A stretch of DNA of 64,000 nucleotides, taken from assembly GCF_024198235.1 (NCBI RefSeq), contig NZ_JAKCFB010000010.1, positions 186,001-250,000 on the forward strand. Direction: 5' to 3'. This DNA comes from Myxococcus dinghuensis (lineage in GTDB: Bacteria > Myxococcota > Myxococcia > Myxococcales > Myxococcaceae). The notes under the pieces are model-generated. The model did not search any database. It was not told the DNA's origin and was given only the letters and a program-made list of their open reading frames with translations. Made by a program: the position numbers and the translations under genes. Shown here in pieces: positions 39,242 through 56,446 of this stretch; position 1 is the stretch's first letter; each line of letters starts with the position of its first letter.

Positions 39242-39294
39242 CTGACAAGGTCGCGAAGGGCATGGAAAGCTCGGCCCGCAGGGGGGCTGTGCGC

Positions 39295-39981
39295 ATGAGG
39301 CTATTGCTCGTCGAGGACGAGGAGAAGATGGTGAGCCTGCTCCAGCGGGGGCTGGCGGAAGAGGGGCACTCCGTCGACGTCTGCGCCACGGGGGGCGCGG
39401 CGCTCGAGCGGGGGCTCCAGGATGGCTATGACGTCATCGTCCTCGACTGGGCGCTGCCCGGCGTGGACGGCGTCACGCTCCTCAAGCACTGGCGGGCCGG
39501 CGGGGTCCGCACGCCCGTGCTCATGCTCACCGCGCGGGGCACCACGCCGGAGAAGGTCACCGGCCTGCGGGCGGGCGCGGACGACTACCTCGTGAAGCCC
39601 TTCGACTTCGAGGAGCTGCTCGCGCGGCTCGAGGCGCTGGCCCGCCGTGGCGAGGCGGAGGACGGCCCGGTGCGTCTGGGCGCGCTGGTGTTGGATCCAC
39701 GGCGCCGCGTGCTGCGGCGGGGCGGACGCGAGGAGCCGCTGACGTCGCGCGAGTTCGCGCTCTTCTCCGCCCTGGCTCGCTTCCCGGGTGAGGCGCAGGT
39801 GCGCTCGCGCCTCCTCACCCAGGCGTGGGGGCCGGACTTCGACGGCAACGGCAACGTGTTGGACGTCTACGTGGGCTACCTGCGCACGAAGCTGGAGCGG
39901 CTGGAGGTGACGGACGTCTCCATCCGCTCCGTGCGGGGCGTGGGGTACAAGCTGGCGGTGAGCGGGGACGCGCCCCAGTGA
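39295..39981 (+). CDS. OmpR/PhoB-family response regulator
   Basis: A 228-residue regulator. The receiver domain (residues 1-115) has acidic residues Glu7/Asp8, the phospho-acceptor Asp51 (VIVLDWALPG), Thr79 and Lys101 (YLVKPF), so it looks fully competent. The C-terminal winged-helix DNA-binding domain (about 130-222) carries 'LTSREFALFSALARFPGEAQVRSRLL' and 'VLDVYVGYLRTKLE ... RSVRGVGYKL', the standard OmpR signature. ATG 39295 gives the canonical MRLLLVEDEE start; an in-frame ATG 33 bases earlier lacks this. The following kinase overlaps by four bases (GTGA), so the two are a cognate pair. The pair is convergent with the copper-oxidase cluster. Confidence 0.93.
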   Translation: MRLLLVEDEEKMVSLLQRGLAEEGHSVDVCATGGAALERGLQDGYDVIVLDWALPGVDGVTLLKHWRAGGVRTPVLMLTARGTTPEKVTGLRAGADDYLVKPFDFEELLARLEALARRGEAEDGPVRLGALVLDPRRRVLRRGGREEPLTSREFALFSALARFPGEAQVRSRLLTQAWGPDFDGNGNVLDVYVGYLRTKLERLEVTDVSIRSVRGVGYKLAVSGDAPQ

Positions 39982-41384
39982 CGCTGGCGCGCCGGCTGTG
40001 GTTGCTGGGCGCGCTGGTGCCCGCCCTCGCCGCGTTCGTGGCGCTGTCCATGGCGGGGCAGCTCTTCCGTTACGACCTGGAGCGCTCGTTGGATCGCGCG
40101 CTGCTCGCGCAGGCCGCGGTGGAGAGCGTCAGCCTCTTCGACGGGCCCGGGCAGAAGGTCCATTTGCACATGGCGGTGTCGCCGCTGGTGGAGCAGGTCC
40201 GGCCCTTCGCGCCGCACGGCTACCTGCACGGCCCGGACGGCGAGCTCGTGGTCCGCTATCCACCCGGCCCCGCGCAGGGCGACCCGCTGGCCGTGGAGCG
40301 GCACGTCCCCGGGGAGCCGGGCGGTGAGCCCGTGCTGATGACACACCACCTGCCGGGCGGGGGGCGCTGGCGCGAGGTGCTGGTGAACGTGCGCTCGCCG
40401 CATGGGGAGCGCTACGTGCTGCGCCTCGCCGCGTCGCTGGGGCAGGTGGACGCGTCGGTGCTGACGTATCACCGCATGGCCTTCGCCCTGGCCGCGCTCT
40501 TGGGGGGCGCGCTGCTGGTGGTCCAGACGCAGCAGGCGCGGCGGCTCGCGAAGCGGTTGAGCGCCATCACCGTGCACCTGGGCCAGCTGCGCGAGGGCGA
40601 CTTCTCTCGCGCGCCGGTCGAGGACGCGGAGGCGGACGAGATTGGCCAGTTGCGGGCGGTGCTGGCGGACGCGACGGAGCGGCTGCGGGGCGCACGCGCC
40701 TCGCAGGAGCGGCTCATCGCGGGCGCGGCGCACGAGCTGCGCACGCCGTTGACGCTGATGCGCACCAGCATGGACCTGGCGCTGCGGAGGGACCGGAGCC
40801 CGGAGGAGCTGCGCGCGAGCCTGCTGGAGGCGCGTGGCGAGGTGGACCGGCTCGCCGTGCTCGCGGGCAACATGCTGGACCTGGCCGTGGCGGGGCGGGG
40901 CGCGTGGGACCGGAAGAAGGGCGACCTCACGGTGCTGGTCACCCAGTCGGTGGAGGGGGCTCGCGCGGAGGCCGAGCGACGGGGGCTGCTCATCCGCCTG
41001 GAGTCGACCGGGGCCGCGGAGGCGCACTTCGACGCGGGCGCCCTCCGGCAGGCCATGGACAACCTGCTGTCCAACGCCCTCAAGTTCTCGCCCGCGGGCA
41101 GCGAGGTCGTCGTGCGCGTGTCCCGCGAGGGCGGCCGCCATCAGGTGCGCGTGGCCGACACGGGGCCCGGCATCCCCATCCCCGAGCGCGAGGCCGTGTT
41201 CGAGCCCTTCCACCGGGTGCTCGGGACGCTGCACACGCCGGGGACGGGGCTGGGGCTCGCCATCGTCCGCGAGGTGGCGGAGCAGCATGGCGGTCGGGCC
41301 TATGTGGCGCCGGGCCCGGAGGGCACCGGCACGGAGGTCGTCCTCGAGGTGCCCGCCTCCGAGCCGGCGGAGCGCTCAGGGTGA
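39978..41384 (+). CDS. Membrane sensor histidine kinase, partner of the OmpR-type regulator
   Basis: A 468-residue kinase with transmembrane helices at about residues 8-27 and 165-185 enclosing a periplasmic sensor domain, then HAMP (about 187-240) and HisKA with His252 (AAHELRTPL). The HATPase domain has N box (MDNLLSNALKFS), G1 DTGPGI and G2 GTGLGLAI. The sensor domain contains several His and Met residues (VHLHMAVSP, HGYLHG, MTHHLP), which could bind a metal such as copper; this is inferred. The GTG start overlaps the regulator stop. Its 3' end overlaps that of the convergent cytochrome/binding-protein gene by nine bases. Confidence 0.9.
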   Translation: MTLARRLWLLGALVPALAAFVALSMAGQLFRYDLERSLDRALLAQAAVESVSLFDGPGQKVHLHMAVSPLVEQVRPFAPHGYLHGPDGELVVRYPPGPAQGDPLAVERHVPGEPGGEPVLMTHHLPGGGRWREVLVNVRSPHGERYVLRLAASLGQVDASVLTYHRMAFALAALLGGALLVVQTQQARRLAKRLSAITVHLGQLREGDFSRAPVEDAEADEIGQLRAVLADATERLRGARASQERLIAGAAHELRTPLTLMRTSMDLALRRDRSPEELRASLLEARGEVDRLAVLAGNMLDLAVAGRGAWDRKKGDLTVLVTQSVEGARAEAERRGLLIRLESTGAAEAHFDAGALRQAMDNLLSNALKFSPAGSEVVVRVSREGGRHQVRVADTGPGIPIPEREAVFEPFHRVLGTLHTPGTGLGLAIVREVAEQHGGRAYVAPGPEGTGTEVVLEVPASEPAERSG

Positions 41385-43136
41385 GAGTGGAATCCAGTCG
41401 GACGCGGCGGTGAGCTGTCCGGTGGTGGCGTCGAGCGCGGCCAACTGGCCTCCCTGGACACCCACGCGGCGGTTGACGCCGAAGGTGACGGGAGGGGAGA
41501 CGCCGGTGTCGAAGTCCCGCAGGGCCTCGAGCTGCTGGACGAGCCCCGCGCGGGTGACCTCGGCGCCGGTCCGGGTGAGCGCTTCGACGAGCACGCGCGC
41601 CGCGGCATAGGCCCCCAACTGGAACCCCATGTGGCTCGGCTGCAGCCGATGCTTCTCCATGAAGTCCGCGAACGCCTTCAGGTCGGGCGCGTGGGGCCCC
41701 AACCCCGCGGGATAGAGGAACCGGACGCGGTGCGCGGACGCGCCCACGACCTCCGGGATGGCGAGGCTCGCGGGCGCGAGCACCGGCACCGCGAGGCCCT
41801 TCGCCTCCAGGGCGCGGAGCAGCATGGCCAGTCCCTCCGGGGAGCCCGCGTACAACACCGCCGGGGGCGCCGTCGTGGCCGCGTGGTGGAGGAAGGTCTC
41901 CAGGTCCCATGCGGCTCGTGCCGCATGCGCTTCACCGGGCTGGGGCGGAGCCGGCGCCGGGTGCGTCGAGGGGGGCCGGGTGTCCCCCGCCCGTGGCGCC
42001 GCGTCCTCGACGGTGAGGCGCAGCTCGCGGGGCACGGCGAGCTCCCGCCTCCCGGTCTCGTCGCGCACCGCGTCCACCCACGCGCCCGCGGCGTCGTGGC
42101 CCACGTGCGCGACCACCAGCGGGTTGCGCCGCAGCTCGGTCTCCCGCGTACGGGCCAGCCACTGCACGGCGAGCCGTGCCAGGGCGGGCTCGTCCGGATA
42201 GAGGAAGAACACGGGGCTGTCCTCCGCGCTGGTTCCGCCACGCAGCGCGAGCGGGAGCACCAGGGGCGCGCCCTCGCGGCTCAGCAAGGCGTCGGAGGGG
42301 AGGGGGCCCTGACGGACGCTGGCGGCGAGCGCGAGCACGCCTCGGTCCAGCAGTCGCGCCGTGGCGTCCGTCCGTCCGGCCTCCGGCTGGGATGGGTGCG
42401 CGAGCAGCTCCGCGTCGTCCTCGACCACCAGCGCCAGCTTGCGCCGGAAGACGCCGCCGCTGGCGTTCACGTCCTCGAACACCGCGCGCACGACGGCGGC
42501 GACGTCCTTGCCCAGGGGGCCCAGCCGGCCGGTGAGCGGCAACGCCGCGCCGACGGTGAGCGTGGTGGAGGAGACGCCAGGGTCGGGGTGCTCTCCCAAC
42601 TGGTCCAGGTACGCGAACAGCTCCTCCTGTTCGACGGGGGTGAGCGTGTAGCGGGGCATGGTGACGCCCAGCGCGCGGCCGCTGGAGGACACGCCTTCCG
42701 TCACCGCGCGCACCAGGGTGGCGCGGGTGTACGCGGGGCGGGAGCGGTCCTCCAGCTCCCCCACCGCGCGGGTCCGCGAGTGGCCGAGCGCCCCCGGGGT
42801 GATGTCGGGGACCTCCACGCCTCCTTCCCGGCTCCCGCGTCCGGAAGGCCCGTGGCAACGGGAGCACGCCGCCACCGCGCCGCTCATCTCCACGCGCTCC
42901 GGCGCGAGGTAGCCCAGGAGCGGGGTGTCGCGGACGCTCAGGCCCCGTTGGAAGAGGCTCCGACCGCGCCGCGCCGCCGCCGGGTCGGACGGCACGGGTG
43001 GTGCTTCGGTCCGCTTGCAGGCGGAGAGTCCCAGCACCATCGCGAACAGCACGCTCCAGGCCCACCGGGGCAGGAGACCCGGAGCGGCCGTCTCTCGCTT
43101 CGGCGTCGCGGTGCGCACGGTGCTACCTGGGGTCAT
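41376..43136 (-). CDS. Lipoprotein fusing cytochrome c to an ABC-type solute-binding domain
   Basis: A 586-residue lipoprotein (lipobox LSAC, Cys40). Residues 50-175 are a class I cytochrome c with CSRCH at 91-95 and a Met axial-ligand candidate in VTMPRYTL (about residue 158). Residues 190-580 are a Peripla_BP_6/LivK-like leucine-binding-type domain ('TLTVGAALPLTGRLGPLGKDVAAVVRAVFEDVNASGG', 'GFQLGAYAAARVLVEAL'). No ABC permease or ATPase genes accompany it. The ABC-type domain is thus probably used for sensing or docking, not for import. ATG 43136 overlaps the SCO gene by 14 bases; a GTG at 43118 is an alternative. Confidence 0.85.
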   Translation of the reverse strand: MTPGSTVRTATPKRETAAPGLLPRWAWSVLFAMVLGLSACKRTEAPPVPSDPAAARRGRSLFQRGLSVRDTPLLGYLAPERVEMSGAVAACSRCHGPSGRGSREGGVEVPDITPGALGHSRTRAVGELEDRSRPAYTRATLVRAVTEGVSSSGRALGVTMPRYTLTPVEQEELFAYLDQLGEHPDPGVSSTTLTVGAALPLTGRLGPLGKDVAAVVRAVFEDVNASGGVFRRKLALVVEDDAELLAHPSQPEAGRTDATARLLDRGVLALAASVRQGPLPSDALLSREGAPLVLPLALRGGTSAEDSPVFFLYPDEPALARLAVQWLARTRETELRRNPLVVAHVGHDAAGAWVDAVRDETGRRELAVPRELRLTVEDAAPRAGDTRPPSTHPAPAPPQPGEAHAARAAWDLETFLHHAATTAPPAVLYAGSPEGLAMLLRALEAKGLAVPVLAPASLAIPEVVGASAHRVRFLYPAGLGPHAPDLKAFADFMEKHRLQPSHMGFQLGAYAAARVLVEALTRTGAEVTRAGLVQQLEALRDFDTGVSPPVTFGVNRRVGVQGGQLAALDATTGQLTAASDWIPLSP

Positions 43137-44259
43137 TCAGGTGCTCGACGGCGTAGACGATGTTCTCCACGCGGGCCATCGCCGGAGACTTCACCCACAT
43201 GCCCGTCGTCGCGTCACCGATGAGGAGCGTGGTGTTGTGGGCGTTGGGGTCGTCCACGTAGCCGCCGAGCTTCTTCAGCACGAGGGTGATGTTCTCGCGT
43301 GCCCCCGTGAGGAAGAACCAGCCGGACCTGACGCCCATCTTCTTCGTGAAGGTGCCCAGGCTCTTGGGCGTGTCGTTGGCGGGGTCCACGGAGAGGGTGA
43401 TCATGGTGATGTCCTTGCCCACGCGCTCTCCGAGCTGCGCCTGCACCTCCGCGAGGTGCTTGGTGATGGGCGAGCAGGCGCCCTTGCAGGAGGTGAAGGC
43501 GAAGTTGATGAGCACCTTGCGTCCCCGCACCAGGTCCTCGTAGAAGCGGTGCGTCTTGCCGTGCTGATCCACCAGCTCCGTGTTGGTGAAGTATTTGGCC
43601 GCGGCGGCGTCCTGGGTCGCCACGTCACCCTCCAGGCTCCCCAGTTCGGAAGGGGCCTTCGAGGCGGCCTGCGCCTCGCGGATGGCGGTGAGGATGGTGG
43701 AGGGGCTGCCGAGCCCGTCCACGCGCTGCCAGTGGTTCGCCACGGCGTTGCCCACCAGCACGGTGGGGCGATGGGCCTCCTTGTCGGGCACGTAGCCGCC
43801 GAGCGCCACCAGCGCCTCCTTCACCCGGGCGGGCTCGCCCGTGAGGAAGGACCAGTCCGGTCCGGGCTTGAAGGGCTCCGCGAACTTCGCCATGCGGTCG
43901 GGGGTGTCGTTGGCCACGTCCAGGGTGATGGAGATGAAGCGCACGCCGCTCTTCGCGCCCAGGTCCTTCTGTACGCGCGCCATCGTCGCCGTCATCGGCG
44001 AGCAGATGGTCTTGCAGCGGGTGAAGATGAAGTTGATGGCCACCGTGTGGCCGCGGACGAGGTCCGTCCACAGCTTCACCTTGCGGCCCGTCTGGTCCAC
44101 CAGCTCCACGTCCGGGACCTCCACGTCCAGCGAGGGCGCGGGCGCGCCGCGGGGCGCGGGGGGCGGGACGACCGCCTCCTGGGCGGACGAGGCCGACGCG
44201 AGGGCGACGACCAGGGAGCACAGGAGGGGACGCAGCGCTTGCGCGCGGAGGGCGTTCAT
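43123..44259 (-). CDS. Tandem SCO1/SenC copper-chaperone protein
   Basis: A 378-residue exported protein (signal peptide about residues 1-26) with two complete SCO1/SenC thioredoxin-like domains. Each has a CxxxC copper site: Cys82/Cys86 (TRCKTICSP) with His163 downstream, and Cys258/Cys262 (TSCKGACSP) with His341. The spacing from CxxxC to His is nearly the same in both (77 and 79 residues), which shows an internal duplication. SCO proteins deliver copper to CuA of cytochrome oxidase or act as thiol redox proteins. Its start overlaps the beta-propeller stop (ATGA). No other SCO gene is in this window. Confidence 0.9.
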   Translation of the reverse strand: MNALRAQALRPLLCSLVVALASASSAQEAVVPPPAPRGAPAPSLDVEVPDVELVDQTGRKVKLWTDLVRGHTVAINFIFTRCKTICSPMTATMARVQKDLGAKSGVRFISITLDVANDTPDRMAKFAEPFKPGPDWSFLTGEPARVKEALVALGGYVPDKEAHRPTVLVGNAVANHWQRVDGLGSPSTILTAIREAQAASKAPSELGSLEGDVATQDAAAAKYFTNTELVDQHGKTHRFYEDLVRGRKVLINFAFTSCKGACSPITKHLAEVQAQLGERVGKDITMITLSVDPANDTPKSLGTFTKKMGVRSGWFFLTGARENITLVLKKLGGYVDDPNAHNTTLLIGDATTGMWVKSPAMARVENIVYAVEHLNDPR

Positions 44260-46244
44260 CGGCGGACCTCGGGAGCGGAGATGGCGGTCGGGGTGGCGGC
44301 CTCCGCCACGCCCAGGGTGAAGTGGGGCAGGCGGCCCAGGTCGATGTTGCGGCTCTCCACGCCCAGCACGAACTTGTACTGGCCGGGCGAGGGCGGCGTG
44401 AAGTCCACCTCGAACAGGCCCTGGCCCAGCGCGCGAGGCTCGGTGCGCGACTGCCAGGTGCCGGGCGTCTTGAACAGGAGGACCCGCACCTCCTCCGGCT
44501 GGACGGGAGGGGCGTCGAAGCCCGGGGTGACCTCGAGCTTGAAGCGCAGCGGCGTGGACACGCCCGCGGTGAGGATGACCTTGGGGTCGAACTCCGGCGT
44601 CAGCGTCAGCGGACGCTTCTTGCTGAGCGACGCGTCCTCCGGAACGCCGCCCACCTTCCACTCCGCGCAGATGATGGCGCGCGGGTTGTCGAGCAGGAAC
44701 TGGACGTCGTAGACGCCGTTCTCCCGCACCGTGGTGCCCGCGGTGTACACGCCCGGCTCCACCTCGCGCAGCGAGCGGTCCAGCACCAGCACGGCGCGCG
44801 GCTCGCGGCCGTAGTTCAGGTGCGTCCCACGGGGCGCCATCATGCCCTCCTGGTAGAGGTAGAGCGCGCGGTCCGCGGCGCCCGCGACGATGACGCCGTT
44901 GCCCTCCGGCAGCGCGGCGATGGGGTCGGAGCGGCCGGGGATGCGGCCCTCGGCCGGGGGCCGCTGGCCCATGGTGACCTGCACCACGGAGGGCGTCCCG
45001 GCTCCCTCCAGCGTCCGCAGCTCCACCAGCGAGACACGCCCGCTGGTGGTGTTGCGCACGTAGGCGAAGGCGTCGGTGAAGACGACGGTGTCCGGCTCGG
45101 AGAAGCCGGTGAGCGTGTGGGCCACCTGTCCGCGCGCGGCGTCCAGGATGTCCACGGTGCCGGACTTCGGGTGGAGCAGGAAGGCCCAGCGCCCCGTGCG
45201 GTCGAAGCGCAGCGCGCCCAGCCCGTCCTTCACGGAGATGCGCTGGGTGACCTCGCGGCGCTGCGGGTCCACCACCAGCACCTCGTTCGTCTTGGGCTGC
45301 GCGAGGAAGACGGCGCGGGCCACGGCGCTCCACGCGATGTCGCCCGCGCCCGCGCCCACCTTCACCGTCCCGAGCACGTCGCGCGAGGTGACGTCCACCG
45401 CGGTGAGCACGTCCGCTTCCGTGCTGGTGAGCCAGGCGGTGCGGCCCTCGTCGGCGAAGGCCACCTCGTGACGGCCCGCGCCCACCTCCAGGGCCTCCAG
45501 CTCGGAGTGGCTGGTGGTGTCGAGGACGCTGACGGTGCCATCCGCGTCGTTGCTCACCCACGCGGTGCGCCCGTCCGGCGCGAGGGCGATGCGGCCCGGC
45601 TGCTTGCCCACGGGAATCGTCCGGGTGGCGAGGAAGCGCTCCAGGTCCACCACGGACACGGAGTTGCCGGAGGACACGGTGACGTAGAGCGACGTGCGGT
45701 CCTTCGTGAGCACCCAGTCCTCCGCCGACCCACCCACGGAGACCAGGCTGTGCAGCTTCGTGCGGTCGAAGGCGATCTGCGGGTTGATGACGGAGATGGA
45801 CTGGTCGTGGTTGAGCGTGAGGAACCAGTAGCTGTTGAGGTCCACCTCCGCCCGGGCGGACAGCAGGCCGCCCAGGTAGGTCTTCACGCGCGCCTTGCAG
45901 GCCGCGTCGTCCATGGGGCCATCGCCCGGCCCGCGCAGGGACATCCACCCCAGCGTGCGGCGGCCCTGCAGCGGCGCGCCCGTCTTCGCGTCCGTGAGCG
46001 CGAAGCGCGCGGTGCCCTGGAGCGGCGCGCCCCGCGTGGCCTCGCGTTGACGCGGGTTCAGCGTCAGGTCGAAGGCCACGGACACTCCCTCGCGCTCGAC
46101 GGTGACGGGCTTCGCGACGATGGGCGCGGGTGGGGGCTCCGCGGGCGCTTCGGGGGCCTCTCCGGGGAGCCAGCGCGAACCGACGGCGGCGAGGACGCCC
46201 AGGGATGCGAGTGCGAGGGTGGCGAGCAGGAGGCGCTGGCGCAT
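44256..46244 (-). CDS. Exported YVTN-type beta-propeller protein
   Basis: A 662-residue exported protein, with a signal peptide or anchor at about residues 3-22. Residues 130-460 hold YVTN/NHL-like propeller blades: 'YLGGLLSARAEVDLNSYWFLTLNHDQSISVIN', 'SLYVTVSSGNSVSVVDLERF', 'GRIALAPDGRTAWVSNDADGTVSVLDT', 'GRTAWLTSTEADVLTAVDVT', 'VFLAQPKTNEVLVVD', 'WAFLLHPKSGTVDILD'. The first and last 150 residues are beta-sandwich-like. Such propellers bind redox partners or metals in periplasmic oxidase systems. It lies between the copper oxidase and the tandem SCO gene and is coupled to the latter by ATGA. ATG 46244 is chosen for its signal sequence; the frame is open 45 bases further up. Confidence 0.82.
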   Translation of the reverse strand: MRQRLLLATLALASLGVLAAVGSRWLPGEAPEAPAEPPPAPIVAKPVTVEREGVSVAFDLTLNPRQREATRGAPLQGTARFALTDAKTGAPLQGRRTLGWMSLRGPGDGPMDDAACKARVKTYLGGLLSARAEVDLNSYWFLTLNHDQSISVINPQIAFDRTKLHSLVSVGGSAEDWVLTKDRTSLYVTVSSGNSVSVVDLERFLATRTIPVGKQPGRIALAPDGRTAWVSNDADGTVSVLDTTSHSELEALEVGAGRHEVAFADEGRTAWLTSTEADVLTAVDVTSRDVLGTVKVGAGAGDIAWSAVARAVFLAQPKTNEVLVVDPQRREVTQRISVKDGLGALRFDRTGRWAFLLHPKSGTVDILDAARGQVAHTLTGFSEPDTVVFTDAFAYVRNTTSGRVSLVELRTLEGAGTPSVVQVTMGQRPPAEGRIPGRSDPIAALPEGNGVIVAGAADRALYLYQEGMMAPRGTHLNYGREPRAVLVLDRSLREVEPGVYTAGTTVRENGVYDVQFLLDNPRAIICAEWKVGGVPEDASLSKKRPLTLTPEFDPKVILTAGVSTPLRFKLEVTPGFDAPPVQPEEVRVLLFKTPGTWQSRTEPRALGQGLFEVDFTPPSPGQYKFVLGVESRNIDLGRLPHFTLGVAEAATPTAISAPEVRR

Positions 46245-46273
46245 GGTGCTTCCAGGAGAAGGAGAAGGAGGAA

Positions 46274-46306
46274 CGGGGCGACGCGGCATTCCACCGCGTC
46301 GCCCCG
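46274..46306 (-). terminator. Strong hairpin between multicopper oxidase and beta-propeller genes
   Basis: CGGGGCGACGCGG (46274-46286) and CCGCGTCGCCCCG (46294-46306) form a perfect 13-base stem with a seven-base loop. In the leftward direction it is followed by a pyrimidine-rich tract (TTCCTCCTTCTCC), somewhat like an intrinsic terminator. It may attenuate transcription so that the three downstream genes are made at a lower level than the oxidase. Confidence 0.6.
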
Positions 46307-46334
46307 GGACTGCTCGAGGTGCTCCGGACGTGTG

Positions 46335-49300
46335 CTACTCGACGCGGAACACGCCCCACAGACCGCCGCCGCTCCACAGGAAGCTGGCCTGGTCGCGGTA
46401 GAGGTAGTCACCCGGGATGCCGTCGATGCCTCCGGCGCCGTACTCCGGAATCATCGTGTACGACTGCATCACCGAGGCGCCGCCCTGCGTGGAGATGACG
46501 GGCGACTTCGTGTTGGGGCCCATCACGCGGGACAGGCCGCCCTCCATCCACGGGTTGCGGTGCCACTCCGCGCCGTGGACGGAGATGGCGTGCTGACGCG
46601 AGTGCCCGGAGGGATGTCCGAACCGCCAGCGGACCTTGTCGTTGGCCTTCGCCCGGAACAGCGGCGTGGCCGGGTCGCCGTGCGCGTACGAGCTGAGCAC
46701 GTTCTCCATCGGCAGGTCGTTCATGTCCTCGGGTGACGTCTGGGGCCGCTGGCCGAGCCGGGCCCACAGCGGCTCGGTCCGGTAGTTGATGCCCTTCTGG
46801 CCGGTGTCCTGCGAGTCGTCGATGCCCGCCGTGTTGCGCAGCGCCCGGCCGCTGTCCAGGCCGTCGGTGTCCCAGTACTCGGAGCGGTCGCTGAGCAGGC
46901 CCAGGTCGTCCTGGAACAGGGCCACGAACTCGCGGAACGTCTCCGGCTTGCCGTCCGGCCGCGTGTACTTGATGTAGGCCTGGGCCTCCGTGCCGGTGTC
47001 CGTCGTCCAGAACGCGTCCGCGGGCTCGATGACGAGCGCGCCGATGGCGCCGTGCATGCCGTGGTTCACCACGTCCGCCATGTTGCGCAGGTTGACGATG
47101 CCGAACTCCATGGCCGTCCTGCGGGCCAGGGGGAACGACGTGCCGAAGGGCGAGCTCTTGAACTCGCCGGCGAACCACCGGTACGTGCGGGAGGAGCCCG
47201 GGGCCACCGTCTGCACCGCGTTGAGGCCCACGTTGGCGCCGTCATCCGAGTTCACGTCGTAGGAGACGAGCTGCGGATGCAGCGACACGTGGTTCGACAT
47301 CTGCACCTGATTGACGTTGAAGCCCGGGGTGATGGCCGCGTGGTGCGCCCAGATGGGCGTCTTCGGCAGCGTCGTGGAGGGCAGGCGGTTGGTCAGGGTG
47401 ACCTGGACGCACTCGCCCGCGCGGGCCCGGAGGATGAGCGGCTCCGGCATGCGCTTGCCGGCCTTCAGCGCCGACAGGTGCGCGTCCTGCGCGAAGATGA
47501 TCGCGTCCGGGTCGTAGATCTCCTGGACGTCGTTGTAGACGAGCCGCTGGTTCGGCAGCCAGTTCTTCGCGTCGATGGCGGAGACCCGGTACAGCCGCAC
47601 CGGCGAGCCCCTGGGGCACGAGTCCGACTTGATGGGCTTGATGCCGAACCAGTCGAGGGCCTCGTAGCGGAGCACCAGGTCCTTGTCGATCTTCACCATC
47701 GCCTCGCGGTCCGCCATCAGGTGCTCGACGGTGCGCACCTTCACCTTCTGGCCGGCCTCGTCCACCTCGTACGAGTCCTCGACGGACTCCGCCTCCTTGG
47801 CGAGGTCCATCACCTCGAGGCCCGCCTCGTCCGGCAGGTCGAACAGCTCGAGCGGCGGGTAGGCCTGCACCTCGCCCGGCTCCGCGGCGCCCTTGCGGGT
47901 GACGACCTGGAGCTTGGGGTTCTCGTCCGCGGCCAGCAGCGCCACGTCCGACAGGGTGCGGATGCCGCGCTGCCGGTTCTTGTACGTGCGGAGGATGCCC
48001 CACATGCCGTTCCACAGGTCGCCCGTGGACGCGCTCATGTACATGTAGTCCGCCGTCTCGTACGGCCCGATGATCTGCGGCAGGCCGCTGGTCAGGTTGA
48101 ACTCGAAGTGCTCGGAGATGCCGATGGCCTGCGCGTTGTAGAAGCCGCTGTCCGCGTCGTACATCTCCTTGAGCCACTTGTTGCCGTGCAGGGTGAACGA
48201 GTGCTGCTCCTCCTGCGCGCCCTGGACCAGGCGGATGCGGATGTTGTCGCCCTGGTAGCCGTAGAGCAGCGGCGTGTAGGGGTCGCCGTGGATGTCCGAG
48301 CGGAAGACGTTGGCCATGTCTCCGCGCGCGCCCACGCGCTGGTAGCGGTCCCCGCAGCGCATGCGGCTGGAGATGCGGTGGGGGATGGGCTCGTTGTGGT
48401 AGTTGATGGTCATCCCGCCCGGGTCCGCGGCGCTGATGGCCTCCGGCATGGGCTCGTTCTCGAAGCCGATGGCCTGCGGCAGCTTCACCTCCTTGTAGTT
48501 GGGGGGATTCACCGCCCGGCCACACTCGTCGTAGAGCGGCACGTAGTCGGCGAACGCGAGCGCGAACTCGCGGAAGCTGTTGGCCGGGTTCGCGGTGATG
48601 ACGTCGGCCTTCCAGCTCGTGGGACCGCCGTCCGCCGCGCGCGAGCCGAAGTAGATGCCGCTGCCCATGTCCCGCCACTTGGAGCCCTTGGGCTCCACGA
48701 TGAGCGCGCCGTAGAAGCCGTGCTGCTGGTGCGACGACGGGCCGAAGTGGTCGTGCGTGAACACCGTCTCCAGCGCGTGCGGGTTGCCGCTGGGCAGCAG
48801 CGGATCCGCCCACCAGCGCTGCACGGTCGTCTGCGCCGTGCCGGGCGCGCGGGGGATGCGCGGGTGGGTGGCGGGCGTGGTGAGGTACACGCGCGGCCCC
48901 GTCTCGCCCACGTTGCCGTCGGCGGCGAAGGCGCCGCCCGCCGCGTTGGCCAGGTGGATGCGGTGGGCCACCGTGTCGGAGGACAGCGTGCCGTCCTCGT
49001 AGTTCCAGCCGTTGCCGGCGCCGTCGGACGCCGTCACGTCGAACTTCACCAGGTGGATGTGCTGCCCGATGACGTCCGTGGGCGTGTAGATCTGGAAGTC
49101 GTCCGGCTCCAGGTGCGCGGGGATGATGTTGGTGGCGTAGAAGTTGATGCACTCGCCCGACTCGGCGCGGAAGAAGAAGGGCTCCGGCGGACGCTTGCCG
49201 TCCTGCGTGTTGGCCAGGTCCTCGTTGAGCACCATCAGTCGCGCCTGCGGATCATGCCAGCCGGCGCGGTTCACGCGCTGCATGGCGACCTGCACGTAGG

Positions 49301-51677
49301 TCGCGCGGTAGTTGCGCTTCACCGTGCTCTCCGGACACGGGTCCGCGAAGGGGGCGCCGGCCACCGGCTTGCGGCCGTTGACCAGGAACTTCCCCGTGCC
49401 GCCCAGGGCGGTGTAGGCCGGGTAGTACTTCGCCGTCTCGCCGTAGGTCGGGTCGTTGTGGAGCGCCAGGGTGGCGGGGGCGGTGGCGCCGGCGGAGCTG
49501 GGGAACTCGCCCGCGTGGAAGGACATGGCGGCCTTCTCCATGGGCGTGCCGTCGTGCGGCAGCAGCTTGATGTTGAGCGCTGTGGGGTCCACGTCGAAGC
49601 GCCCGGAGTTGCCGTAGACCACGGGGCCCACCGCGTTGGTCACGATGTGGCGCGGCAGGCCGCCGTCGTACTCCAGGTCCAGCGGCGGCTGCGGCGTGCG
49701 GCGGCCGGGCATGCCCGGGATGTAGAAGGGGAAGCCGGGGAACGCGGGCCGCGTCATGAGGCCGGAGGGCGTGCTCACCGTGGTCGCGGCGTACGTGGGC
49801 ATGGGCGGCATGGCCCGGTTGGGGATGGGGATGACGGCGGGGTTGGGCGTGCCGCCGGAGATCTCCGCGTCCGGGAGGCGGCGGTCCTTGGTGCCGGCCT
49901 CGAACACGTCGTGCACGCGCCACAGCGCCCACATGCCCTGCGCGAAGTGCGGGTACAGGTGGCAGTGGTGGATGGAGTCGCCCGCGGTGAAGTTGCGGTT
50001 GCCGGAGCCGCCGTAGTTGATGTCGTAGGTGAAGGCGGAGCCGGGGCTGACCGTCTGCGAGTCGAGGTAGTTGGAGTTCTCCACGCTCGGCGAGTACTTC
50101 CACTGGTGCGCGTGGAGGTGGAAGACGTGGGTCTCCGCGGGGCCCGCATGGATGTTGCGGATGCGCACCGGGTCGCCCAGGTAGCTGTGGTGGACGTTGG
50201 TCGGGTCGTCCGGGTAGAGCGCGCCCACGGCCTTGCCGCTGGCGTCCTTCTCCACGTTCATCGCCGGGTCGCCGTTGGCCCACGACTCGAGGAAGAACTC
50301 CTCGTATTCGCAGGTGACGCAGTTCTTGGTAGGGCCGATCTTCGAGCGGTTGGCGAGCAGCTCCGCGCCCAGGCCCGCCACGCCGTAGTTGACGCCGAAG
50401 CCGTCACGCACGCTGTGCAGGGTGGGGTTCCACTCCAGCTCGTCGAAGGCCTGAACCGCCTTGACCTCGTCGTGGTAGATGGCGGTCAGCTCGCGGAAGT
50501 GCCCCTGGTCGATGGACGTGCTCGTGCCCACCACCGTGTTCTTGTAGCCGGTGACGATGGCCTCCAGATCGCCGTGACGGATCTGGTTGTTCCCGTCGAG
50601 GATGGCGAGATAGGGCCGGCCGGAGGGGTCCTTCTTCGCGTAGTCGATGACGGGCGTGCCGTCCGGGTTGTTGCTGGTGGTGACGGTCTTCAGCACCGTC
50701 TCGCTCACCTTGGAGCGGTACCAGGTGCTGCCCGCGGGCTCCACGTTCACCGCGCCGAACAGGCCCTGCGCGGTGGAGCCGCCGTCGCCCTCGCCGCCGA
50801 ACGAGGCGCCCATGCTGTAGAAGAAGAAGACGCCCTCGTGGTCCGCGTACCACAGGTAGTCCGTGGAGCCGCCGGACGGGACGAGGCTGCTGGGGTTCAG
50901 GCCGACGTTGGCGCCGTCCGTGAGGATGTCGCGCAGGTACTGCAGGCCCTGGACGTGGAGGGACGCGTGCCGCGTGGCGGGGGAGTTGTCGCGGTGGTCG
51001 TCATCCACCTCCAGCTCCTGGCCCAGCCAGAACCACCTGCCACCCACGGCCTCGCCCTTCACGAGCGACATCACCCGGTCATACGTCGGCGTCAACACCC
51101 AGAGCGGGAGCAGCTTGCGCACGACGGAGATGGTGGTGGAGCCGCCCGCCTTGCTGACACCGGGCTGGGACTGCTCCGCGCTGGGGATGGCCGAGCGGGT
51201 GGGGGCGAGCCAGTTGTGGAACTTGACGCTGAGGCAGTCCCCCACGTTGGCGCGCAGCGTGAGCGGGCGAGGGCGCTTGGTCGGCTTCAGGCGCACGTTG
51301 CCCGGGCCCATGCCCTTGGAGGGGCTGATGGCCTCCACGTCGTCCATCAGCGCATAGACCATCCCGGACGGGTTGAACGAGCCCAGGCGGTTGTAGGTGT
51401 AGACCTGGTCCAGCGCGACCACCTCCGCGAAGACCGTCCGGGTACACGCGGCCGCCGTGCGCGGCTGGGGCTCGGCGGTGACCACCTTGTCCTGCGCGGC
51501 GGCCATGGGCTGTCGGTCCGCGGAGATGGCGTCCGCTCCTCCCGCGCCTTCCGACTGACAGGCGAGCTGCGAGGCCAGCGCCACCGTGGCCAGGGCCCGA
51601 CCCCACCTGGGGATGGGGCGGCCCGTGGCGACCGGCCATGGGCCGTCCCCGGGATGTCGATTCTCGGTTGAAGACAC
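46335..51677 (-). CDS. Giant exported multicopper oxidase (MnxG/copper-oxidase-like)
   Basis: A 1780-residue exported protein (hydrophobic signal about residues 27-39, with Cys40 in a poor lipobox) built of repeated cupredoxin domains. Copper-ligand motifs: HVFHLHAHQW at 517-526 and HHCHLYPHFAQGMW beginning at 570, a full type 1/type 3 HCHxxxH...M set. Further His clusters are at 975 (HDHFGPSSHQQHG), 1159 (HSFTLHGNKW) and 1696 (HAISVHGAEWH). Only the first motif set has HCH. Size and layout recall manganese-oxidising MnxG-type oxidases, though substrate cannot be read. GTG 51677 is chosen because AGGGGG lies just upstream and the signal follows. First gene of the leftward cluster. Confidence 0.85.
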   Translation of the reverse strand: MSSTENRHPGDGPWPVATGRPIPRWGRALATVALASQLACQSEGAGGADAISADRQPMAAAQDKVVTAEPQPRTAAACTRTVFAEVVALDQVYTYNRLGSFNPSGMVYALMDDVEAISPSKGMGPGNVRLKPTKRPRPLTLRANVGDCLSVKFHNWLAPTRSAIPSAEQSQPGVSKAGGSTTISVVRKLLPLWVLTPTYDRVMSLVKGEAVGGRWFWLGQELEVDDDHRDNSPATRHASLHVQGLQYLRDILTDGANVGLNPSSLVPSGGSTDYLWYADHEGVFFFYSMGASFGGEGDGGSTAQGLFGAVNVEPAGSTWYRSKVSETVLKTVTTSNNPDGTPVIDYAKKDPSGRPYLAILDGNNQIRHGDLEAIVTGYKNTVVGTSTSIDQGHFRELTAIYHDEVKAVQAFDELEWNPTLHSVRDGFGVNYGVAGLGAELLANRSKIGPTKNCVTCEYEEFFLESWANGDPAMNVEKDASGKAVGALYPDDPTNVHHSYLGDPVRIRNIHAGPAETHVFHLHAHQWKYSPSVENSNYLDSQTVSPGSAFTYDINYGGSGNRNFTAGDSIHHCHLYPHFAQGMWALWRVHDVFEAGTKDRRLPDAEISGGTPNPAVIPIPNRAMPPMPTYAATTVSTPSGLMTRPAFPGFPFYIPGMPGRRTPQPPLDLEYDGGLPRHIVTNAVGPVVYGNSGRFDVDPTALNIKLLPHDGTPMEKAAMSFHAGEFPSSAGATAPATLALHNDPTYGETAKYYPAYTALGGTGKFLVNGRKPVAGAPFADPCPESTVKRNYRATYVQVAMQRVNRAGWHDPQARLMVLNEDLANTQDGKRPPEPFFFRAESGECINFYATNIIPAHLEPDDFQIYTPTDVIGQHIHLVKFDVTASDGAGNGWNYEDGTLSSDTVAHRIHLANAAGGAFAADGNVGETGPRVYLTTPATHPRIPRAPGTAQTTVQRWWADPLLPSGNPHALETVFTHDHFGPSSHQQHGFYGALIVEPKGSKWRDMGSGIYFGSRAADGGPTSWKADVITANPANSFREFALAFADYVPLYDECGRAVNPPNYKEVKLPQAIGFENEPMPEAISAADPGGMTINYHNEPIPHRISSRMRCGDRYQRVGARGDMANVFRSDIHGDPYTPLLYGYQGDNIRIRLVQGAQEEQHSFTLHGNKWLKEMYDADSGFYNAQAIGISEHFEFNLTSGLPQIIGPYETADYMYMSASTGDLWNGMWGILRTYKNRQRGIRTLSDVALLAADENPKLQVVTRKGAAEPGEVQAYPPLELFDLPDEAGLEVMDLAKEAESVEDSYEVDEAGQKVKVRTVEHLMADREAMVKIDKDLVLRYEALDWFGIKPIKSDSCPRGSPVRLYRVSAIDAKNWLPNQRLVYNDVQEIYDPDAIIFAQDAHLSALKAGKRMPEPLILRARAGECVQVTLTNRLPSTTLPKTPIWAHHAAITPGFNVNQVQMSNHVSLHPQLVSYDVNSDDGANVGLNAVQTVAPGSSRTYRWFAGEFKSSPFGTSFPLARRTAMEFGIVNLRNMADVVNHGMHGAIGALVIEPADAFWTTDTGTEAQAYIKYTRPDGKPETFREFVALFQDDLGLLSDRSEYWDTDGLDSGRALRNTAGIDDSQDTGQKGINYRTEPLWARLGQRPQTSPEDMNDLPMENVLSSYAHGDPATPLFRAKANDKVRWRFGHPSGHSRQHAISVHGAEWHRNPWMEGGLSRVMGPNTKSPVISTQGGASVMQSYTMIPEYGAGGIDGIPGDYLYRDQASFLWSGGGLWGVFRVE

Positions 51678-52081
51678 ACGTCCCCCTGCGTCACCCGGAG
51701 ATCGGGTGAAAACATGATTAATCTGAGGCTGTCGCGATGGGTGTTTCTAAGAAACCTCTCATGAAACACAGACATGCTTTCCGTGTCTCATGTGTCTCAC
51801 TATCGGCGCGATTCGCTGAAAGTAAACACTCCGCGTAAACGCCCGGAGTCTGGGTGCTCCCGGTCCGAAGTGAGGGGTTGTCTGAGAGGTTTCAAAGAAT
51901 CATGTCAGGCACGTGTGTCGAGGCGTCCGGGGGAAGTCTGGGGTCGCGGGATTCCACATGGGGCGAAAACTACCCGGTGGATGGCGTTTTGCTACGCTCC
52001 TGTTGAAATATTGCGGATTGCGAGAGGGACGAGACCTGTGGGATGCCAAGGGGGCGTACGTCCCCCCGGAGTTTCCCAAGC
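51678..52081. promoter_or_regulatory. Divergent promoter region between copper oxidase and amidohydrolase lipoprotein
   Basis: 404 bases without a gene, clearly more AT-rich than its surroundings, as expected for two divergent promoters. Notable elements: the inverted repeat GTTTCT-A-AGAAAC at 51743-51755, and a tandem GTGTCTCA-T-GTGTCTCA around 51783-51799 preceded by ACAGACATG. These could be binding sites for a regulator of both transcripts, for example the nearby OmpR-type protein; unproven. Confidence 0.5.
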
Positions 52082-55000
52082 ATGTCCTGGTCCTTCCGCC
52101 AATTGTTGGCGCCGCTCGCGGCCCTTCTCCTGGTCGTCACCGCCTGCGGCGATGACGATCCTCCTGCCTCCGCGGTCTGTGGCAATGGTGTCGTCGAGCG
52201 CGGCGAGAGCTGTGACGACGGCAACACCACCGACGGTGATGGCTGTAGCAGCACCTGCCAGACGACTCCCAAGCCCGATGCGGGCCGTCCCGACGGTGGC
52301 CCGGGTGACGGGGGTCCCTCGGAGCCGGACGGTGGCCCGGGCAACGACGGTGGTACGGGCAACGACGGTGGTACGGGCAACGACGGTGGTACGGGCAACG
52401 ACGGCGGCACCACGGAGCCCGACGGTGGCCAGGTCGAGACCGACGGCGGCACGACGGAGCCTGACTCCGGCACGGTGACGGACGGCGGCACGACGGAGCC
52501 TGACTCCGGCACGGTGACGGACGGCGGCACGACGGAGCCTGACTCCGGCACGGTGACGGACGGCGGCACGCAGCCGGACTCCGGCACGGTGACGGATGGC
52601 GGCACCCAGCCCGACTCCGGGACGGTCACGGACGGCGGCACCCAGCCGGACTCCGGCACGGTGACGGATGGCGGCTCCGAGCAGCCCGACTCCGGCACGG
52701 TGACGGACGGTGGCACGCAGCCGGACTCCGGCACGGTGACGGATGGTGGCTCCGAGCAGCCCGATGCGGGGCCGGGGGCCCCCGACTCCGGTTCTCCGGA
52801 CTCCGGTACGACGCCTGACGCGGGCTCCGAAGGCCCCATCGTGACGTGCCCCGCGGCGAACCTGCCGCCTCCTCCGACGGGTACGTGCACGGTGACGTCC
52901 GGCAGCGCCGCGCGCCTGTTCACGGGCGTCATCCTGGCGCCGGACAAGGTCTACCGCGGTGGCCAGATGCTGGTGGATGACACGGGTGTCATCCAGTGCG
53001 TCAGTTGCGATTGCTCGCAGGCGGCGGGCGCCGCGGCGGCGACGCAGGTCACCTGCCCGCAGGCCGTCGTCTCTCCGGGCCTCATCAACTCGCACGACCA
53101 CATCACCTTCCAGCAGGCCCCGTACGTGGCGAGCGCGTCGACGGCGGCCGAGCGCTACGAGCACCGCCACGACTGGCGCCGGGGCAACAACGGCCACACG
53201 CTGATCAGCGCCACGGGCAACTCGAGCACGGAGTCCATCCGCTGGGGCGAGCTGCGCCAGCTCATCGCGGGCACCACGTCCGTCGCCGGCTCCGGCGGCG
53301 CGAAGGGCCTGCTGCGCAACCTGGACGCGCCGAACACGTCCACCAGCGGCAGCAACCAGGAGGGCCTGGGCGCGGGCGCGGGCGCGAACTACGAGACGTT
53401 CCCGCTCGACGACAGCAACGGGCGCGAGTTGGCGACGGGCTGTGGCTACGCCAACATCGACACGCCGTCCGCCATCCCCGCGGCGTCCGCCTACCTACCG
53501 CACATCGCCGAGGGCATCGAGGCCTCCGCGCGCAACGAGTTCCTGTGCCTGTCCGGCCAGCAGTCTGGGGGGCAGGACATCCTGAGCTCGCGCACCTCGA
53601 TCATCCACGGCATCGGCCTGCGCGCCAGCGACATCGAGCTGATGGCGACCAAGCGCACCAGCCTGGTCTGGTCGCCGCGCTCCAACGTCGCGCTGTACGG
53701 CGACACGGCCTCCGTCCCGCTCTACAAGTCCATGGGCGTCAACGTGACGCTGGGCACCGACTGGCTGCGCTCCGGCTCCATGAACATCCTGCGCGAGCTC
53801 AAGTGCGCGGATGACCTGGACGCGTTCTATTTCAACAACGCGCTGAGCGACGAAGAGATGTGGGCGATGGTGACGTCCAACGCGGCGCTGGCGTTCCAGG
53901 CGACGCGGGTGGGCGCGCTGGTGAAGGGGAAGGTGGCGGACGTGGCCATCTTCCGCTTCTCCGGCCCGCTGGCCTCGCCTCACCGCGCGGTCATCACCGC
54001 GCAGCCCGCGGACGTGGTGCTCACCATGCGTGGCGGCAAGGCGCTGTACGGTGAGTCGGCGCTCGTCTCCGCGCTGAACACGACGGGCTGCGACACGCTC
54101 GACGTCTGTGGCGAGCAGCGCACGGTCTGCCTCCAGTCCGAGATCGGCGAGAACCTGGCCACGCTGCGCGGGAACAACAGCAGCGCCTACCCCCTGTTCG
54201 CGTGCGGCACGCCGTCGGACGAGCCGGTGTGTCTGCCCAAGCGCACGTCCACCGACTCGCGCTTCCCGGCCTCCGTCTCCGGTTCGACGGTCTACACCGG
54301 CGACCTGACGGGGCTGGACGTGGACGGCGATGGCGTCCCGGATTCCGTGGACAACTGCCCGTCGGTCTTCAACCCTGTGCGCCCGGTCGACCAGGGGCAG
54401 CAGCTCGACTCGGACGGCGACGGCGTTGGTGATGCCTGCGACGTGTGCCCGCTGCTCGCCAACTCCACGCAGTGCTCGCGCCCCACGCCCAACGACGTGG
54501 ATGGTGACGGCGTGATCAACCCGGTGGACAACTGCCCCTCCGTGCCGAACCCGGATCAGGCGGACTCGGACGGCGACGGTCGCGGTGATGCGTGCGACCT
54601 GTGCCCGGCCCCCAATACGGGCGACGAGCCGTGCCCGCTGTCCATCTACGACGTGAAGCAGCCGACGCCGAACGGTGGCTCGGCGTGGGTGGGCATGAAC
54701 GTCACCCTCAACAACGTCACCGTGACGGGCGTGGGACCCACCGGCTTCTTCGTCCAGGTGAACCCGTTGGATCAGGGCTACCACGGCGCCGACTACTCGG
54801 GTCTCTTCGTCTTCACGCGCACGGCGCCCGCGAGCGACGTGGTGCCGGGCACTCGGGTCAACGTCACCGCGACGGTGGCCAGCTACTTCGGGCAGATCCA
54901 GCTCTCCAACCCCACGGTCGCGGTGGCCAGCCAGGGCAGCACCGTGCCGCCGCCGCAGGTGGTGGTGCCGGCCGAGATTGCGACGGGCGGCAGCCGCGCC

Positions 55001-56446
55001 ACGGCGCTGGAGGGCGTGCTGGTGCGCGTCACGCAGGTGCAGGTGACGAACATCGCGCCTCCGCCGGGTGGCGGCGACTCCGCGCCCACCGGCGAGTTCG
55101 AGGTCAACGGCGTGCTGCGCATCAACGACTACCTGACCACCTTCGCGCTGCCCGCGGTGGGGGACCGGTTCGTGTCCATCACCGGCGTGCTGGAGCTGCG
55201 CAACGACCACTCGAAGATCGAGCCCCGCTCCGCGGGTGACTTCGTGAAGGCCGGACAGGGCGAGGTGACGCTCGCGTCGCTGGGTCCCACGGGCCTCTAC
55301 GTGCGGTCGGGCTTCACCGGCCCGACGTTCCCGGAGCGCCTCACGGTGGTGCTCAGCGGCCCCGCGCCCCAGGACACGGTGGTGACGGTGTCGTCGTCCA
55401 CGTCGGCGGTCTCCGTGCCGGGGGGCCAGGTCGTCATCCCCGCGGGCGAGCAGGCCGCCTCGGTCATCCTGAGCGCGGACCAGGCGCGGGATCCGGGCGT
55501 GGGCAAGGCCCTGCTGACGGCCACCCTCGGAGGCACCAGCCTCAACGCGACGGTGAACGTGCTGGCGGTGGACGCTCCGACGTCGCTCGCCATGCTGTCG
55601 CCGGAGCAGGCGGTGGTGCGGGGCGGCGGCACGCACAGCTTCACGCTGACGATGGACGTGCCCCCGGCGACGGACACGACGGTGCAGTTGGCCGTGCAGC
55701 CCGCCTCCCTGGGCGCGGTGGCCTCGCAGGTGGTGGTGGCCGCCGACGCGCTGACGGTCAAGTTCACCTTCACCGCGGCCAACGTGAGCGGCGAGGGCGA
55801 GCTGGTCGCCACGCTGAACGGCAAGTCGGTGGTGGCGAAGCTGCGCGTGGATGCCCCGACGGGCGCCAGCCACATCGTCATCAGCGAGTTCGCGCCCCAG
55901 GGCTCGGGCAGCGCCGACGACGAGTTCGTGGAACTCTTCAACCCGACCTCGAGCGCGGTGGACCTGTCCGGCTGGAAGCTGCAGTACAAGAGCGCGACGG
56001 GTACGGCGTACCGCTCGTTCTCGCTGCCCGCGGGCGCCACCATCGCGCCCCGCGGCTTCTACCTGGTGGCGAGCACCGTCTACTCCGGCACCGCGCCGGA
56101 CACCCGGTGGCCCACCACGGCGTTCGCGATGTCCGCCTCCGCGACGGGCGGCGGCAACCTGCGCATCGGGTCTCCGGAGATGGGCACGGATCCGGGCGAC
56201 CCGAGCGTCGTGGACCAGGTGGGCTATGGCACGGGTGACGACGCCGAGGGCACCCCCATCTCCCCCATGGCCGCCGCCGCGGGCTCCTTCGAGCGCAAGG
56301 CGAACGCCTCCTCCACCGCCGCCACCATGCAGGGCGGGGTGGATGCGGCGCGCGGCAACGGGCACGACTCGGGCAACAACGCGGCGGACTTCATCCTCCG
56401 CACGCTGCGCGAGCCTCAGAACACCTCCAGCGCCGCGGAGCTGTAG
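52082..56446 (+). CDS. Mosaic lipoprotein: Cys-rich repeat, acidic tandem repeats, amidohydrolase, lamin-tail-like domain
   Basis: A 1454-residue lipoprotein (lipobox VTAC, Cys22). Order: a Myxococcota-type Cys-rich repeat ([17 protein letters not shown], about residues 32-62); Gly/Asp/Thr-rich tandem repeats (about 65-255); an amidohydrolase domain (about 270-660). The last has the metal site SHDHITF (His338, His340), [17 protein letters not shown] and [10 protein letters not shown]. Thrombospondin type 3-like calcium repeats ([15 protein letters not shown], from 745 and 805) follow, then an OB-like beta region (about 855-1050), an Ig/Calx-beta-like region, and a lamin-tail-domain-like module from 1260 ([10 protein letters not shown] ... 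[11 protein letters not shown]). Probably a cell-surface hydrolase on an acidic stalk. ATG 52082 gives the lipobox; an upstream in-frame ATG does not begin with the signal. Confidence 0.8.
52340..52411 (+). repeat. Four 18-base tandem repeats (GNDGGT units)
   Basis: Four copies of GGCAACGACGGTGGTACG, the last slightly diverged, encode GNDGGT repeats inside the mosaic lipoprotein. The near-perfect copies suggest recent expansion by slippage or recombination. Confidence 0.85.
52448..52765 (+). repeat. 36-39-base tandem repeats coding (E/Q)[10 protein letters not shown]
   Basis: Eight copies of the peptide unit [10 protein letters not shown] joined by TTE, TQ or SEQ linkers, followed by a diverged PDAG. 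DNA copies are nearly identical, and three consecutive units share the same 36 bases. Copy number may vary between strains. The repeat gives an acidic, flexible, threonine-rich stalk. Confidence 0.85.

Follow-up and report, generated by a model that had tools for sequence, protein, structure and literature searches.

What task do four tightly packed open reading frames on one strand serve, and is their combination new? The frames encode a multicopper oxidase (MCO), a YVTN propeller, a tandem SCO protein and a cytochrome c/binding fusion. They lie on the reverse strand at positions 41376-51677 of the window, the 64,000-nucleotide stretch that was analysed (C2:186001-250000 of a host genome of 10.4 Mb). 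A first-pass annotation had described them as a candidate exported copper oxidation cluster of undescribed composition.

Organisation of the gene cluster

All four leftward frames were located, together with the convergent OmpR-type pair that the annotation had placed directly beside them (Table 1). The MCO and propeller genes are separated by 45 nt. Overlap of the last three genes was confirmed by measurement: the propeller and SCO genes overlap by 4 nt (shared ATGA) and the SCO and cytochrome genes by 14 nt. The four genes may be transcribed as a single RNA. The kinase gene converges on the cytochrome/binding gene with a 9-nt overlap. A divergent gene (52043-56446) encodes an amidohydrolase with TSP3 and lamin-tail domains and contains tandem repeats at 52328-52764, with units of 18, 36/39 and 75 bp among others.

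Table 1 Features of the cluster and its surroundings in the window
Feature	Position	Strand	Evidence
MnxG-like multicopper oxidase, 1780 aa, GTG start at 51677	46335..51677	-	NF041487, PDB 9bxa, 12 inferred copper ligands
YVTN/cd1-type beta-propeller between two beta-rich stretches, 677 aa	44256..46289	-	Pfam, NCBIfam, AlphaFold2, Foldseek
Tandem SCO1/SenC copper chaperone, 378 aa	43123..44259	-	SCO1-SenC in two stretches; CxxxC and His in both
Putative lipoprotein, cytochrome c and branched-chain-amino-acid-type periplasmic-binding domain, 586 aa	41376..43136	-	Peripla_BP_6, CxxCH, M160, AlphaFold2
OmpR-type response regulator, convergent neighbour	39262..39981	+	Domain matches; also adjoins the cluster in related loci
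Sensor histidine kinase, convergent neighbour	39978..41384	+	Domain matches; 18/23 window-side order loci
Conserved blocks upstream of the oxidase gene, candidate promoter/operator	51755..51899	-	Alignment of 17 chosen loci

The oxidase and its copper sites

Pfam revealed generic domains only in the oxidase (Cu-oxidase_3 and Cu-oxidase_2, both above cut-off). MnxG (NF041487) was the sole NCBIfam family matched up to an E-value of 0.01, with E 3e-279 and 929.6 bits, so that the equivalog cut-off of 3100 was not reached; none of the 145 order genomes passed this cut-off. The sole PDB match up to E 1 was Bacillus MnxG (9bxa, E 3e-137).

Conservation was followed in 113 oxidase rows, made up of the window, 32 order loci and 80 pattern-found loci, several of which repeat genomes already present. 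The type 1 residues H517, C572, H577 and M582 as well as H520, H522, H571, H573, H873 and H875 were kept in 113/113 rows and H975 and H977 in 112 (the gene of the remaining locus, L070, is cut by a contig end), a conservation that is partly built in for HCH and HIH because two patterns, containing HCH and HIH respectively, had served to find 80 of the 113 rows. On the basis of standard MCO motifs, we take these 12 residues to be copper ligands. The type 1 ligands and the four HxH pairs of the trinuclear centre are all present in the window oxidase; a degenerate oxidase was thus rejected. Their layout agrees with that of the bacterial six-domain oxidases in the available text of PMC3600357, which have copper sites in domain 2 and between domains 2 and 3. 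The oxidase is probably exported. In chain A of 9bxa an Ala is aligned to H577, which is His in all 113 rows; this chain is possibly an engineered variant.

The three partner proteins

Two Pfam models were at or under their cut-offs in the propeller (YNCE 27.1 of 27.1, Cytochrom_D1 24.6 of 25.5), and the YVTN repeat TIGR02276 was above it (54 vs 27.85). An AlphaFold2 model (mean pLDDT 87.4) was used for a Foldseek search, which returned generic propellers (YVTN S-layer propeller, hydrazine synthase, NirN/NirS/NirF) with TM-scores by query length of 0.20-0.43 in the best 50 of 1846 rows. Among the columns that are invariant in 31 sequences (30 of 33 located rows plus the window) are W115, C131, W244, H274, E481, M483 and C541.

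Each domain of the tandem SCO protein carries a CxxxC motif and a His (C82, C86, H163 and C258, C262, H341). In an alignment with one frame per locus the residues of the second domain were kept in 32/32 rows and those of the first domain in 26/32 rows each. The rest are mostly gaps, because some loci have separate SCO genes: two separate frames were found in L036 and L059-L063, whereas both domains are fused in the window.

In the last protein the cytochrome c domain gave no Pfam match at E 0.01, while its counterpart from Pseudomonas locus L130 does match. Nevertheless the heme motif CxxCH (C91, C94, H95) was kept in 31/32 rows, with one row gapped, and M160 in 32/32. Of 27 located rows 25 were aligned with the window. 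The family profile matches cytochrome subunits in the PDB, and the AlphaFold2 model has a mean pLDDT of 85.6. In one locus (L053:3592-5595) the matches to this gene fall into two segments, separated by a stretch without match, within a single open frame. Extra copies occur away from oxidase genes at G043:C1:3974505-3976052 and G075:C1:8987303-8988826.

Conservation of the gene set and its order

The MnxG family search gave matches in 37/145 order genomes and in 0/14 control genomes. Strong matches (E 7e-98 or better) account for 33 of these genomes, and four with short weak matches (G044, G048, G052, G011) were left out of this count. The same 33 of the 145 genomes have a strong match to the cytochrome/binding profile (>300 bits, a line chosen after seeing the table, with about nine candidates scored per genome). 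At E 1e-30 this profile matched 71/145 genomes, many via the binding domain alone; weaker full-length matches in other order genomes scored 199.7 bits at best (G022). Genome-wide co-occurrence refers to the oxidase and the cytochrome/binding protein, the only two proteins that enter into it.

Gene order was read from 32 order loci, each with 8 kb or more downstream, that represent 29 of the 33 genomes; no locus came from the window's own genome or from G072, G093 and G121, where the genes are distributed among short contigs. In 31/32 loci (22/23 window-side, 2/2 for L032-L033, 7/7 for L057-L063) the oxidase gene is followed by the propeller, SCO and cytochrome/binding genes in this order, in agreement with the annotation, for which a lack of co-conservation of the four genes would have been a refutation. 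The same cluster is also present in Myxococcus, Pyxidicoccus and Corallococcus records. The exception is L034 (genome G085), where the oxidase gene lacks its three neighbours; the cytochrome/binding protein of this genome is encoded on another contig (G085:C3:99221-100705). Upstream of the oxidase gene any of the three partners was found in 0/30 testable order loci and in 3/51 more distant loci. A chance neighbourhood was rejected on account of this difference between downstream (31/32) and upstream (0/30) order, together with the co-occurrence in the same 33 genomes.

The distant set was formed after removal of L064-L071, whose records belong to order genomes or lie close to them, and of L136, which is the same place as L063; it comprises 71 loci, 26 of them without 8 kb downstream. 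In distant loci with enough sequence the full four-gene order was found in 25/45, including Nitrospira L072, Pyrinomonadaceae L074 and Pseudomonas L130, and the propeller in 40/45; some of the 20/45 loci without full order may lack it through divergence. Taken together, the cluster almost certainly belongs to an MnxG-like operon family.

Position of the oxidase within the family

In a midpoint-rooted FastTree tree of 90 rows the window oxidase groups with seven other copies from its own family, and the next group is a set of ten including Polyangiaceae, L034, L036 and L078. Identity between the window oxidase and the Pseudomonas copies found is 32-34% in the best segments, and the midpoint root separates this oxidase from the Pseudomonas MnxG subclade. 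This subclade also holds L057-L063, among them Anaeromyxobacter L063, and three of these loci (L057-L059) come from the window's own family. Genomes G043 and G074 carry both oxidase types. Since both sides of the tree carry the module, it probably predates the split or has been transferred as a whole. MnxG-like oxidases from records labelled Nitrospira or Nitrosomonas (L072, L081, L088, L094, L096, L111, L116, L121) also fall on the window's side of the root; L072, L081 and L088 show matches to all three partners.

In a second reading the window oxidase represents a branch that is sister to MnxG and shares its operon but acts on another substrate, for example Fe(II), Cu(I) or an organic compound; the partner genes would form a general module for loading and coupling six-domain oxidases. 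Its separate branch, its score far under the MnxG equivalog cut-off and the occurrence of relatives of the oxidase, many of them accompanied by partner genes, in nitrifiers, methanotrophs, Acidobacteriota and Nitrospirota are in line with this reading. Nevertheless, conservation of the partner genes and of the presumed copper ligands extends over both halves of the tree and gives no hint of an altered mechanism, and we consider another substrate possible but unlikely. Equally tentative is a more specific version: an old sister branch that has retained the four-gene module in Myxococcota, Acidobacteriota and Nitrospirota, is under OmpR-type control of its own in Myxococcaceae and differs from the Pseudomonas enzyme in role or substrate.

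The neighbouring OmpR-type pair and the upstream region

A kinase like that of the window is convergent downstream of the cluster in 18/23 window-side loci, in 0/9 other order loci and in 0/45 distant loci. The OmpR-type pair probably controls the cluster in this lineage. The several His and Met residues of the sensor domain, to which the annotation had drawn attention, were only partly conserved in 19 aligned kinases: H62 (15), H64 (15), M65 (18) and M167 (14) were mostly kept and H142 in 10, but H80, H84, H109, M121, H123, H124 and H165 were kept in 2 to 6 of 19. As several His and Met residues are not conserved, a strong claim of metal sensing from this composition was rejected.

The upstream region was aligned for 17 chosen loci of 24 window-side ones, the window included. 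The genome contains a single perfect match to the sequence TTTGAANNCTCTYAGA, at the oxidase upstream region (51755-51899), and elsewhere one match with one mismatch; a reversed-pattern control gave one match. As a guess, the OmpR-type pair might bind the conserved upstream blocks.

A copper-tolerance cluster, with the MCO as cuprous oxidase, the SCO protein and the His/Met sensor serving copper and the OmpR-type pair as switch, would explain the SCO proteins, the adjoining pair and the HxHM kept in most of the 19 sensors, but is very improbable, since MnxG is the only NCBIfam match of the oxidase up to E 0.01 (Pfam adding generic oxidase domains only), several sensor His and Met residues are not conserved, and SCO proteins also belong to the Pseudomonas mnxG operon (PMC11409713, Table 4). 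Copper oxidation, named in the heading of the annotation, was rejected as the main task for want of direct support; the SCO proteins fit copper loading of the oxidase.

Proposed function

On the basis of the family, the gene order, the co-conservation and the complete copper, heme and SCO motifs, which were established directly, we favour with reasonable confidence a myxobacterial mnxG-type operon, in which an exported six-domain MCO, supplied with copper by the tandem SCO protein, oxidises a metal, Mn(II) being the likeliest. At the level of sequence the match to MnxG, the match to 9bxa, the order shared with P. putida GB-1 and L130, the co-conservation and the kept copper ligands argue for this operon type, whereas the score of 929.6 of 3100 bits and the position outside the Pseudomonas MnxG subclade argue against it. 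Mn(II) as substrate is suggested by analogy with MnxG and appears more probable than not. The annotation had proposed one exported redox module with Mn oxidation among its tasks, and this proposal is supported by our data, with export itself being predicted.

In the mnxG-type operon the tandem SCO protein would load the exported oxidase with copper, a role suggested by family knowledge. The oxidase would then oxidise Mn(II) to Mn(III/IV) at the type 1 copper in domain 2, and the electrons would pass to the trinuclear centre between domains 2 and 3, where O2 would be reduced. From family knowledge the propeller can be regarded as a dedicated partner, probably a scaffold, and the cytochrome c/binding lipoprotein as another, probably a ligand-dependent electron relay or sensor. 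In this lineage, expression of the operon would probably be under control of the neighbouring OmpR-type pair.

Comparison with known mnxG systems

The window oxidase and Bacillus MnxG (PDB 9bxa) are both MnxG-type MCOs whose HxxHxH, HCH, HIH and HDH motifs align, but 9bxa comprises 1227 aa and the window oxidase 1780 aa. In contrast to the Bacillus MnxGEF complex, as far as its description was available, no MnxE or MnxF genes are found within the four-gene run, and there is no room for them between the genes.

Closer in length is MnxG of Stigmatella aurantiaca (1760 aa), a single computer-annotated protein listed in Appendix 2 of PMC3600357; it very probably belongs to the same family, likened here by description and not by sequence. 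No operon for this protein is given in the available text of that paper. An mnxG gene was also linked to Myxococcota in a deep-sea brine pool, where it served as proxy for Mn oxidation and was expressed in a Myxococcota bin, with neither gene cluster nor activity in the available text (PMC11252502). According to the accessible part of PMC10367259, six bacterial MAGs carry mnxG, and two of these are named as Nitrospirota MAGs. The literature searched, as far as its text was available, contained no description of the operon in Myxococcota and no Mn(II) oxidation test with a cultured myxobacterium.

The composition of the cluster, which the annotation had taken to be undescribed, is in print for Pseudomonas putida GB-1, and its novelty was rejected for this reason. 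Table 4 of PMC11409713 lists the GB-1 mnxG operon as mnxG, YVTN beta-propeller, SCO1/SenC, SCO1/SenC, amino acid ABC substrate-binding/cytochrome c and SurA domain, and the legend of Fig. 2 in PMC8218464 names the same set of parts. The large MCO, propeller, SCO and cytochrome c/ABC-binding genes thus follow each other on one strand in the same order in GB-1, by this table, and in the window. The same succession was found in Pseudomonas guariconensis L130 (MCO, propeller, SCO1-SenC twice, Peripla_BP_6 with Cytochrom_C, SurA_N). Compared with the published GB-1 entries, the two SCO genes, which are separate there, are fused in the window, and the run, which ends with a SurA gene in GB-1, is without SurA and followed by the convergent kinase gene. 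Furthermore, control in GB-1 is described as sigma-54-type (MnxS1/S2/R), whereas an OmpR-type pair adjoins the window cluster.

Since the cluster is a version of the described P. putida mnxG operon, its set of parts is not new, and it adds no new kind of system. Local features are the fused SCO pair, the run without SurA, the adjoining OmpR-type pair and an oxidase outside the Pseudomonas MnxG subclade. What the locus offers is an mnxG-type module, complete and conserved, from soil predators that can be cultured. Propeller, SCO and cytochrome/binding proteins accompany the oxidase in different phyla, and their roles could be examined here in a second model besides Pseudomonas.
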